Made by a program: the position numbers and the translations under genes. DNA of 64,000 nucleotides from Pontiellaceae bacterium B12219 (GTDB taxonomy: Bacteria > Verrucomicrobiota > Kiritimatiellia > Kiritimatiellales > Pontiellaceae), in assembly GCA_029432795.1 (NCBI GenBank), contig JARNMJ010000009.1, positions 1 to 64,000 of the forward strand, written 5' to 3'. Below, in pieces: positions 40,089 through 45,062 of this stretch. Under the pieces are notes generated by a model. That model saw nothing but the letters and a program-made list of their open reading frames with translations, made no database searches and was not told where the DNA came from. Position 1 is the stretch's first letter. Each line of letters begins with the position of its first letter.

Positions 40089-41507
40089 ATGATTGCCGTA
40101 ATCAATACTGCCTCTGCCTGTTCCTGGGTGGAGGGGCTGGGCGAGGTTCCGTGGGCATTGCTGCCCGTGGCGAATCGTCCGATTGTGGATTACTGGCTGG
40201 AAGCCTGTACCGAATTCGGAGTGCGTTCGGTTCACATCATTCTCGGCGACGAAGCCAAACAGATTGAAGATTACATTGCATCCGGAAGCCGATGGAATGT
40301 GGTGGTGGAATATATTTTCCCCCGCAAGAATGAAAGTGCGGTTGAGTACATAAAGTCGATTTCCGACTATTGGAAAAACGGCCTGCTCTATTTCGGTGGA
40401 CCGTTTTTTATGCGTAGAAGGCAGGGGTTTCGTACCGAGCGGATCAAGGAGTTGAAGACCTGTTGTCATGAACTTGATTCTGAACCCTATTTTATCTATG
40501 GGAAAAACGGTGATGAACTCATGGGCCTGCTCGAAGGCTGCAACGAGCCGAACCGGGGGCTGGAAACGATTCATGTGCACCCGTACATTATGACCTCGCT
40601 CAACGACTATTTTGAGTTGAACATGAAAATGGTTAAGGCGGAATTCTCGCGCTATGTTACGGCCGGGTTTTCCAGTAAGGACGGCAGTTCAATGGGCTGC
40701 AATGTGCGAACGCCTCCATCCAGCCACCTGCAGGCTCCCATTCTGGTGGGCGACGATTGCCGCTTTGGCGCCATGACCACGATCGGCCCCCATGCAGTGA
40801 TCGGCAACCACGTGATTGTTGATGCATTCAGCGAACTGATCGATTGTCTGATTCTCTGCGATACCTATATCGGCCGAAACCTGGAAATCCGGAACAAAAT
40901 CGTTTCCGGAAACCGGGTCATCGATCCGCTGGATGGAACCACCATTCAAATTGACGATTCCTGGCTGATTGCCCGCAACCGGCCGGAGCTGCGTACGGAG
41001 GATGTTGTTCGGTATATCATTCTTTGGGGGGTGGCTTTATTGATTGCAATGGTTCAGCTGATTCCATTCCTTCTGTTCATGCCGCTGATCCGGTTGAGCG
41101 GCATTGCGCATTTCAGAAAGCGGCAATATCACGATCCGCATACCGGCTATATTGCACTTCCCGACTTTGAAAAGAGAAAGGACCGTAAATCCATTATTTA
41201 CCGTGTTTTCCGCGCTCTTTCGCTGGACCGTTTTCCACGCATACTTCTCGTGCTTCGCGGGCGGATGTTTCTCTGCGGTCAACCGCCGATGCGGCACCCG
41301 GAAGATGACGGAATCATTAAAGAGCTGAAACAGTATTACCCTGGCGTTTTTTGCTATCAGGACTACAACCGGGATTCCGACCGGTTGGTCGATTCTCTTT
41401 GGTATGTTCATATCCGTTCTCTTTACGAAGATATTAAGATTCTGATCAAGGCGCTGGTGAGTCGATTCCTTACCGTCGGGCGAAAAACTTCCATGGATGG
41501 TAAATAG
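40089..41507 (+). CDS. Nucleotidyltransferase / sugar-transferase fusion
   Basis: A 472-residue composite. The N-terminal part (about 1-205) resembles NDP-sugar nucleotidyltransferases (PWALLPVANRPIVDYWLEAC). A left-handed beta-helix-like segment (about 213-285) has hexapeptide repeats such as ILVGDDCRFGAMTTIGPHAVIGNHVIV. A membrane segment lies at about 305-340, and the C-terminal part resembles the end of bacterial sugar transferases (SLDRFPRILLVLRGRMFLCGQPPM in place of SLDE-P...GDMSLVGPRP). The catalytic Asp-Glu of active transferases is not conserved there, so that half may be non-catalytic or regulatory. Confidence 0.75.
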   Translation: MIAVINTASACSWVEGLGEVPWALLPVANRPIVDYWLEACTEFGVRSVHIILGDEAKQIEDYIASGSRWNVVVEYIFPRKNESAVEYIKSISDYWKNGLLYFGGPFFMRRRQGFRTERIKELKTCCHELDSEPYFIYGKNGDELMGLLEGCNEPNRGLETIHVHPYIMTSLNDYFELNMKMVKAEFSRYVTAGFSSKDGSSMGCNVRTPPSSHLQAPILVGDDCRFGAMTTIGPHAVIGNHVIVDAFSELIDCLILCDTYIGRNLEIRNKIVSGNRVIDPLDGTTIQIDDSWLIARNRPELRTEDVVRYIILWGVALLIAMVQLIPFLLFMPLIRLSGIAHFRKRQYHDPHTGYIALPDFEKRKDRKSIIYRVFRALSLDRFPRILLVLRGRMFLCGQPPMRHPEDDGIIKELKQYYPGVFCYQDYNRDSDRLVDSLWYVHIRSLYEDIKILIKALVSRFLTVGRKTSMDGK

Positions 41508-41509
41508 CA

Positions 41510-42763
41510 ATGGCTTCCAAGCATTGGAATATTCGTACTGCCGATGAAAACCGTGTCCATGAATTAAGCCTGAAATGCGGGCTCCCGACACCGATCGCGC
41601 GCATTCTGGTTCAGCGCGGATTCCGGACTGCCGCCGAAGCGGAAGCATTTATGAACCCGCGTTTGGCTGATCTGTCCGATCCCTATCTGCTGCCGGATAT
41701 GGAAAAGGCGGTTTCCAGACTTTGGAAAGCCATCGATGCGCAGGAAACCATTACGGTCTTTGGCGATTACGATGTGGATGGCGTCACCTCGGCATCGTTG
41801 CTCACCCGGATATTCAGAGCACTTGGGGCGCAGGTGAAACCGTTCATTCCTGATCGTCTTGATGAAGGGTATGGCCTCTCTGCCGATGCACTGCAGCGCT
41901 GCCTCGGTGAGCATGGATCCTCTGTTGTTGTATCGGTCGACTGCGGGGTTAATTCGGTTGAAAGCGTACAGGCTGCGCAGGCGCAGGGCGTTGACGTGAT
42001 TGTTACCGACCATCACGAACCCGAAACTCAGACCGCTCCGGCATTTGCACTGATTAATCCAAAGCTTGGGACCGTTCCATCTCTTGAAATTCTGTCCGGC
42101 GTTGGAGTGGCCTTCAAACTGGCCCACGGCATGGTGAAGCTGGGGCGGGAGCTGAAGCAGCCGAGTGCGGCGGTTCTCGATCTTCGGGACTATCTGGATA
42201 TTGTTGCGCTCGGAACCGTGGCAGACATTGTTCCGCTCATGGATGAAAACCGTATTCTTGTGCGTTACGGACTTCAGCAATTGGATGAAACCAAATGGGT
42301 GGGACTGGAAGAGCTGAAGCGTATTGCATCGGTGAAAGGTGAAGCGAATACCTATCATTTGGGCTTTCAACTTGGTCCGCGCATTAATGCCGCGGGGCGA
42401 ATCGGAGAGCCGATGCAGGCGCTGGAATTGCTGACGACGGTAAGCCGGTCCGCTGCGCAGCGGATTGCCAATCTATTGAACGAAACGAATGCGGAGCGGC
42501 GGCGTATTGAGCGGGAGATGGCTGATGAAGCCTTTTCCGAAATTGATGCGTATTTTGATCCGAAGCAACACTTCGGGCTGGTGGTGGCCAAAGAGGGCTG
42601 GCATCCCGGGGTGGTTGGAATTGTGGCCTCACGCGTTTCCCGGCATTACAACCGACCCGCCATTATTATGGGCATTGAGGCCGACGGCAGTGCACGCGGT
42701 TCGTGCCGCAGCATCGAGGAATACAATATGCTCGATGGCCTGCAGGCCTGTGAAAAAAACTGA
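41510..42763 (+). CDS. recJ: Single-strand-specific exonuclease RecJ, N-terminal part (frame broken)
   Basis: 417 residues of a 5'-3' single-strand exonuclease for recombination and mismatch repair. The DHH-family motifs are present: VFGDYDVDGVTSASLL, SVDCGVN, VTDHHEP, GPRINAAGRIGEP and, in DHHA1, KEGWHPGVVGIVASRV. The frame stops at TGA 42761-42763, after GSCRSIEEYNMLDGLQACEKN. The next expected residues (L-x-K-F-G-G-H-x-M-A-A-G) continue in the -1 frame. The start lies three bases after the previous stop; a palindrome copy overlaps codons 2-7 (41515-41529), and another is at 41713. Confidence 0.9.
   Translation: MASKHWNIRTADENRVHELSLKCGLPTPIARILVQRGFRTAAEAEAFMNPRLADLSDPYLLPDMEKAVSRLWKAIDAQETITVFGDYDVDGVTSASLLTRIFRALGAQVKPFIPDRLDEGYGLSADALQRCLGEHGSSVVVSVDCGVNSVESVQAAQAQGVDVIVTDHHEPETQTAPAFALINPKLGTVPSLEILSGVGVAFKLAHGMVKLGRELKQPSAAVLDLRDYLDIVALGTVADIVPLMDENRILVRYGLQQLDETKWVGLEELKRIASVKGEANTYHLGFQLGPRINAAGRIGEPMQALELLTTVSRSAAQRIANLLNETNAERRRIEREMADEAFSEIDAYFDPKQHFGLVVAKEGWHPGVVGIVASRVSRHYNRPAIIMGIEADGSARGSCRSIEEYNMLDGLQACEKN
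42754..42760 (+). other. A AAA AAC slippery heptamer at the recJ frame break
   Basis: In the recJ reading frame the codons are TGT GAA AAA AAC TGA, so A AAA AAC has the exact phase of a canonical -1 slippery site, followed at once by the stop. A -1 slip gives CTG AAT AAA TTC GGC GGG, restoring the family sequence. A perfect palindrome GGCCTGCAGGCC lies at 42737-42748, just upstream. A single-base loss in an A8 run would give the same picture. Confidence 0.8.
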
Positions 42764-42783
42764 ATAAATTCGGCGGGCATAAA

Positions 42784-43227
42784 ATGGCGGCGGGGCTGGA
42801 AGTAAAGCCGGGTGAGCTCGATGCCTTTAAAACAGAATTTAACCAGGCTGTTGCTCAGGAACTTTCTAAAGTGGATCTTTCTCCGGTGCAGCACATCGAT
42901 TCGGTGGTCGAAGCGGATGTAGTGACTTTTGATTTTCTGAAGCAGCTCAAACAGCTCCAGCCGTTTGGGCAGAATCATCCGGAACCGGTCTGGGTCATGA
43001 AAAACCTTTCCGTTTCCGGATCGCCCCGAGTGGTTGGATCGACTCATTTGAAACTCGAACTGGTTTCCAAAGGTCGGAAGTTTGAGGCGATTGCCTTTAA
43101 CTATCCGCTCAGTCAACTGCCTGCCGGAAAGCTCGATGTGGCCTTTACGCTGAAGGAAAATAACTGGATGGGAAATAAGACGCTGCAGTTGGATGTTAAA
43201 GATATTCATGCGGCTGATCCGGGCTGA
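42784..43227 (+). CDS. recJ: RecJ C-terminal part, -1 frame
   Basis: This frame, open from before 42760, carries NKFGGHKMAAGLEV (the conserved end of DHHA1) and then the RecJ OB domain (LQPFGQNHPEPVWVMKNLSVSG ... LKLELVSKGRKFEAIAFNY ... DVAFTLKENNWMGNKTLQLDVKDI). Joined with the upstream part by a -1 shift, the product is about 573 residues, normal RecJ length. It has no credible start of its own: the ATG at 42784 is within a conserved motif and lacks a ribosome-binding site. Confidence 0.88.
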   Translation: MAAGLEVKPGELDAFKTEFNQAVAQELSKVDLSPVQHIDSVVEADVVTFDFLKQLKQLQPFGQNHPEPVWVMKNLSVSGSPRVVGSTHLKLELVSKGRKFEAIAFNYPLSQLPAGKLDVAFTLKENNWMGNKTLQLDVKDIHAADPG

Positions 43228-43343
43228 CCGGACGTGTGAATCTTAATTGAATATTGAGATTATGTCCTGATTACTTGCCTTGTCTTGCGGTCTTTGCCAG
43301 AATTTCAGGCATTCGCAACTGTGCAGTTTATGAAGGGGCTATT

Positions 43344-45062
43344 TTGGAAGCATTGAAACAGATTTTCGATTCCATCCTGCATACGGGTCAACTCAGCCCG
43401 TTCCTGGTGGTCGGTATTTTAATTCTGGCCGGATTTGCCGGCGGGTGGGTGGCTAAACTCCTGCGTTTACCGCACGTGACCGGGAATATTCTTGGCGGCG
43501 TCGTGGTGGGTCCTGCCTGTCTCGGCCTGATCGGAACGCATGAGCAACTGCACGCTCTTCAGCCGCTTTCCACTTTTGCGATGAGTCTGGTTGCCGTCAG
43601 TATCGGCGGGCATCTTTCCTACCGCCGGATTCATAATTCCATCCGCCGCATTATTTCCATTTCAATTTTCGAAGTCGGTTGTTCTGTTGTTTCGGTGGTG
43701 ATTGCCTCCCGGTTGTTCGGAATGAACTGGCCAACCACGCTGCTGCTGGGCGGAATTGCGGCGTCAACCGCCCCGGCCACCACCATTGCGCTCATTCGTG
43801 AAATGCGTGCAAAAGGGCCCTTTGTTAAAACGCTGATCTCGGCGGTCGCGCTGAATAATATTCTGGCGATTTTATTGTTCGTGATGATGCGTACCTTTGT
43901 GGCGGCCTATTTTGAGAGTGGCGAAACCACGGGTAAAATTGACGATGCTCTGATTCTTTCAACCTATCATTTTTTCGGTGCCCTTCTGCTGGGACTCGGT
44001 GCAGGTTGGATTTGCAGGATTCTGGTGAGCAAACCCAAGTTTCACGACTTTACCACCATTCTGCTGGCAATCATGCTGTTGGATGGTTTGGCAGCCTATC
44101 TGCAGCTCAGCCCGCTTCTCGTGAATCTGTTTTTCGGGGTTTATCTGGGCAACAGCTCGGAAGTTGCGGAGCGGCAGCTCACCACGCTCGTTCCGCTGGA
44201 ACCGGTTCTCTATGTCATCTTTTTCACGCTGGCCGGTGTTTCGCTGCATCTTGATGCGATGCTGGCGGTCGGGCTGGTGGCCATGGTTTATTTCGGTGCC
44301 CGCGTACTGGGAAAAACCATTGGATCCATTCTGGGCGGTATCATCGGAAGAACCACAAAACGGATGTGGCAGAATATGGCTTATGCGCTTTATCCGCAGT
44401 CGGGCATTGCGATTGGTCTGGTGATTCTGCTTAGCAACGATGCATTTATTCCGGAAGATATCAAACAGGCGGTCAGTGCCATTATTCTGGCCGGAGTAAC
44501 CATTGCTGAAATTCTAGGGCCGTTCTGTACCAAAGCCGCGCTGGTCCGTTCCGGCGAAGCGAATCGCGATCGCCAGCGGCTGGTCGAATTTCTGGCGGAA
44601 GAATTTATCATTGTTGATCTCAAGGCGATGGATAAGTGGGATGCTATTCGGCAGATGGTGGCCTTCTTGATGAAAACACATCGAGTGGAGCATATCAGCC
44701 AGGAAGAGCTTTATCAGTCGGTGGTGAGCCGGGAAAAGGATATGTCGACGGCCATGGGGCACGGAATTGCAATTCCTCACGGACACATTGAAAAAGGGGT
44801 TGCGATTCAGGGGGTCATGGCGATTATCCGGGAAGGTATTGATTTTGATGCACCGGATAACGAACCGGTAAAGCTGATCATGCTGATTGTTACGCCGAAG
44901 GATAAAAAAGATCTGCATCTGAAGGTGCTATCCAGTTTGTCGTCGATGATTTCCGATGCCGCGATTCGTGATCGGTTAATGGCCGCCATCAGTCCGGAAG
45001 ATGCCATGGAAGTGATCGAATCCAAAGAGGCGCGTGACTACAATTATTTTCTCGAACAGTAG
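43344..45062 (+). CDS. Cation/proton antiporter (CPA2-like) fused to a PTS EIIA domain
   Basis: A protein of about 572 residues. The membrane part (about 10-390) has a dozen hydrophobic segments of the monovalent cation:proton antiporter fold, with GNILGGVVVGPACLGL and the NN motif in SAVALNNILAIL. The C-terminal EIIA domain (about 425-565; fructose/mannitol class) carries the active-site pattern STAMGHGIAIPHGHIEKG with His phospho-acceptor. The fusion suggests control of ion flow by PTS phosphorylation (inference). I prefer the TTG at 43344 with GAAGGGG upstream; another TTG at 43254 gives an unlikely Cys-rich extension. Confidence 0.85.
   Translation: MEALKQIFDSILHTGQLSPFLVVGILILAGFAGGWVAKLLRLPHVTGNILGGVVVGPACLGLIGTHEQLHALQPLSTFAMSLVAVSIGGHLSYRRIHNSIRRIISISIFEVGCSVVSVVIASRLFGMNWPTTLLLGGIAASTAPATTIALIREMRAKGPFVKTLISAVALNNILAILLFVMMRTFVAAYFESGETTGKIDDALILSTYHFFGALLLGLGAGWICRILVSKPKFHDFTTILLAIMLLDGLAAYLQLSPLLVNLFFGVYLGNSSEVAERQLTTLVPLEPVLYVIFFTLAGVSLHLDAMLAVGLVAMVYFGARVLGKTIGSILGGIIGRTTKRMWQNMAYALYPQSGIAIGLVILLSNDAFIPEDIKQAVSAIILAGVTIAEILGPFCTKAALVRSGEANRDRQRLVEFLAEEFIIVDLKAMDKWDAIRQMVAFLMKTHRVEHISQEELYQSVVSREKDMSTAMGHGIAIPHGHIEKGVAIQGVMAIIREGIDFDAPDNEPVKLIMLIVTPKDKKDLHLKVLSSLSSMISDAAIRDRLMAAISPEDAMEVIESKEARDYNYFLEQ

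Follow-up and report, generated by a model that had tools for sequence, protein, structure and literature searches.

The recJ Locus

The window, i.e., the whole 64,000-nucleotide stretch of Pontiellaceae bacterium B12219 DNA analysed here, belongs to a draft genome of 4.75 Mb in 273 contigs. It contains a gene predicted to encode RecJ, a single-strand-specific 5'-3' exonuclease of DNA repair, which appears to carry a one-base frameshift at an A7-C stretch and is divided over two overlapping reading frames. The features of the locus are:

41510..42763, plus strand: 5' part of recJ, 417 aa in the 0 frame, with DHH and the first part of DHHA1; TIGR00644 positions 3-387 at 404.7 bits, PF01368 and partial PF02272; 82% identity to the relative G001
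42737..42748, plus strand: palindrome GGCCTGCAGGCC, read as codons GGC CTG CAG GCC (G-L-Q-A) and no signal
42753-42759, plus strand: A7 run containing the heptamer, read from the sequence
42754..42760, plus strand: A AAA AAC heptamer at the frame break, in the 0 frame, read from the sequence
42761..42763, plus strand: TGA closing the 0 frame, from the sequence and the ORF
42760..43227, plus strand: 3' part of recJ in the -1 frame, with the end of DHHA1 including motif VII (FGGHKMAAG) and the OB domain; TIGR00644 positions 393-546, PF17768 RecJ_OB (6.5e-28) and the rest of PF02272; aligns with Deinococcus radiodurans RecJ from residue 391

The gene is followed by a sodium/hydrogen exchanger that carries a fused PTS EIIA type 2 domain (43254-45062) and preceded by a nucleotidyltransferase-like and hexapeptide part joined to a partial bacterial sugar transferase domain (40089-41507).

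The 0 frame ends GAA AAA AAC TGA, and the -1 frame picks up at CTG 42760 (LNKFGGHKMAAG...) and continues to a stop at 43225-43227. The stop at 42761-42763 precludes a single uninterrupted frame. The two pieces cover consecutive stretches of TIGR00644, and the RecJ domain order DHH, DHHA1, OB is complete across the two frames by TIGR00644 and Pfam. The assembly does contain the frame change. The earlier note had described recJ as leaving its frame exactly at A AAA AAC followed by TGA, and a -1 slip as rejoining the conserved RecJ sequence with zero residues lost; its coordinates and description are correct on both points, and the palindrome that it placed upstream of the A run is present as well. 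In register, A AAA AAC occurs 22 times in 135,379 sampled codons of the host genome, or about once per 6,000, and A runs are themselves prone to indels, so that a break on this heptamer is unremarkable.

The Same Site in Related Genomes

By RecJ identity, the nearest named relatives are Pontiellaceae bacterium B1224 (82%) and Pontiella sulfatireligans (75%). All relatives with a full-length recJ match (42 of 42) have a single open frame of at least 566 aa through the site, with no internal stop; the recJ matches of the other relatives are partial, or lie in shorter, truncated frames or at contig ends. The DNA preceding the FGGHKMAAG motif was read directly in 25 relatives, and 49 occurrences of the motif, including the window's own and some duplicates, were scanned for any XXXYYYZ heptamer within 63 bases. 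Neither the direct reading nor the scan revealed A AAA AAC in a relative. The equivalent codons are non-slippery, as in the closest relative (82% protein identity), where TGC GAG GAG TAT CTG AAT AAA TTC stands in place of TGT GAA AAA AAC TGA ATA AAT TC in the window. Across 388 genomes of the phylum, the combined pattern of heptamer, stop and motif was matched by the window alone; the pattern was strict on the codons after the stop and tests the exact arrangement rather than every variant.

Age and Background of the Break

Over the 155 residues after the break, recJ shares 63-69% identity with four intact relatives, which share 62-66% among themselves when the close pair G024/G027 (83%) is left out. 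In all comparisons of this downstream part, dN is far below the nearly saturated dS. The similar identity and the low dN relative to dS indicate that the 3' part of recJ has accumulated no decay. Its undecayed state is what an error or very recent mutation would leave, and a bypassed frame would fit too; by this comparison of sequences, the break would thus be recent, artefactual or bypassed.

For an estimate of the background, 464 kb of the host genome were set against parts of three relatives' genomes, which yielded about 95 intervals fit for comparison. Besides recJ, this sample contains one convincing frame break, near position 2290 of contig C196, with no long homopolymer. That apparent one-base break (L073, G000:C196, about 2200-2310) affects a gene resembling those of Na+/H+ antiporters; its G024 homologue is such an antiporter (PF03553). 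The small number of other breaks in the 464-kb sample indicates that the host assembly is not grossly error-ridden. The single-contig assembly G024 contains about four one-base breaks, some of them at G runs; those at L056 and L093, such as the one that a lipB-like gene has at a G run, resemble long-read consensus errors. A member of the same class, G321, shows a recJ frame change at another place (L142, about 2290), a GC-rich site in the GPRLNAAGR motif that has no such heptamer. The breaks in the C196 gene, in the G024 genes and in the G321 recJ show that one-base breaks in good genes are part of the ordinary background in such assemblies.

Origin of the Frame Change

The recJ gene is very probably an ordinary RecJ gene with a lone one-base indel at an A homopolymer, confined to this assembly and due to an error or a recent mutation. 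Of the two readings offered by the earlier note, the one in which mutation or a sequencing error removed a base at the A run has the support of the open frame in the relatives and the intact constraint downstream. A one-base change in the A-rich stretch before CTGAAT would put a stop directly past the heptamer and give the site its slippery look. Three points speak against this account: the break coincides exactly with a textbook X XXY YYZ site, a -1 slip restores the protein with no residue lost, and the host assembly is not grossly error-ridden. Here and below, the probabilities attached to the readings are our own judgement. Most likely is an error of sequencing or consensus at the A7-C stretch, or an indel there that is very recent or at the level of the strain; of these, an error or a consensus of mixed strains would probably be the source.

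The same indel may also be a genuine recent change in the cell, which we put forward tentatively and which would turn this strain's recJ into a pseudogene or a phase-variable gene. No sequence feature opposes a recent event, and homopolymers are hot spots of replication slippage. However, almost every genome of the phylum has recJ (363 of 388), and its loss should therefore be costly; phase variation is further disfavoured by the shortness of the A7 run and by the relatives, which have no tract there. If real in the cell, the indel would leave an inactive protein truncated ahead of motif VII. A small amount of full-length RecJ might still leak through by occasional slippage at the A's, and nothing indicates selection for such a leak.

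The likely fate of a short product can be judged from D. radiodurans RecJ, in which His397 of motif VII was proposed to be the general acid. Replacing this residue by alanine strongly impairs the enzyme, and the nuclease core is much less active once the OB fold is removed (PMC4846377). In the alignment, the -1-frame part starts at residue 391 of that protein, and the histidine of its GGH is equivalent to His397. The 0-frame product would be unlikely to serve as a useful isoform, since it stops in the middle of DHHA1, just before motif VII, and lacks both this motif and the OB domain.

Bypass and Recoding

A real frameshift could also be bypassed if transcription slipped on the A run, and the gene would then still work. 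The intact downstream constraint is consistent with such a bypass, and the rescue of broken ORFs by slippage on poly-A has been described in bacteria (PMC1088944). Selection against poly-A slippage is evident at length nine in a large share of genomes (PMC1088944), compared with the seven A's present here, and the host genome has many tracts of eight A or T (48 in 464 kb). Transcriptional slippage is very unlikely to account for the split gene.

Programmed -1 ribosomal frameshifting at A AAA AAC, the other reading of the earlier note, would yield a short RecJ fragment and the full-length nuclease, in the way that dnaX gives two subunits. The site itself has what such a reading calls for, namely the right heptamer (X XXY YYZ in the 0 frame at the break, 42754-42760), the right register, an immediate stop and a -1 slip that restores the protein exactly. 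In contrast, neither the site nor the overlapping frames are conserved in any relative. The earlier note had itself named an unbroken frame in relatives, with no slippery site, as the observation that would count against programming, and this is how their recJ is built. GeneTack, a survey that takes conservation of the site as the mark of programming, makes no mention of recJ in its text (PMC3711429). Stimulatory elements do not stand out either. The 87 bases past the stop fold no better than shuffled sequences (z = 0.57; 139 of 200 shuffles equal or better), which places any downstream structure within chance. Upstream, the hairpin formed by GGCCTGCAGGCC (-8.6 kcal/mol, z = -1.77), a sequence found once in the window, encodes G-L-Q-A inside the conserved stretch DGLQAC, and G027 has the identical 12-mer in an intact recJ with no slippery site. 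The palindrome is ordinary coding sequence, and its candidacy as an upstream stimulator was rejected as a coincidence of codons. Furthermore, the break cuts into a domain, before motif VII, instead of falling at a domain boundary. With no conservation, no stimulators and a cut inside a domain, programmed frameshifting was rejected as highly improbable.

We give equally little credence to a species-specific, newly arisen -1 frameshift that would set the amount of full-length RecJ. A search of literature text for recJ together with programmed frameshifting returned nothing relevant. We know of no earlier programmed case in RecJ, and if the reading were true, the recJ described here would be the first. 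Two further ideas were rejected: a second recJ copy that would make the split one dispensable, as the host genome has just one match to the recJ query and one further DHH-family protein, and a recurrent recJ break at one place in the phylum, as the only case near the same place (G158) is found close to a stretch of N's in its record, and the positions of the other same-contig breaks that were read are different.

Comparison with Known Systems

Compared with the RecJ family (TIGR00644; DHH, DHHA1, RecJ_OB), both pieces correspond to consecutive parts of the model in the usual domain order, and the difference is a split by one base in this assembly only. The -1 frameshifting of dnaX, which involves A AAA AAG, an upstream Shine-Dalgarno-like element and a downstream hairpin, shares with recJ an A-rich heptamer in the same register. 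It differs in that the recJ heptamer is A AAA AAC, that recJ lacks both conservation of the site and a hairpin beyond chance, and that its break lies inside a domain. The shorter dnaX subunit is a functional protein, in contrast to what is predicted for the recJ fragment. Without conservation, even a perfect slippery heptamer at the point where a frame breaks is no evidence of programming, and caution is warranted with such sites. In the GeneTack survey, programmed cases group into clusters that share a conserved site, and a singleton is taken for a pseudogene or an error (PMC3711429). It is such a singleton, i.e., a homopolymer indel or a gene-fragmenting assembly error, that recJ resembles, with one genome, one base, a homopolymer and a gene that is otherwise intact.
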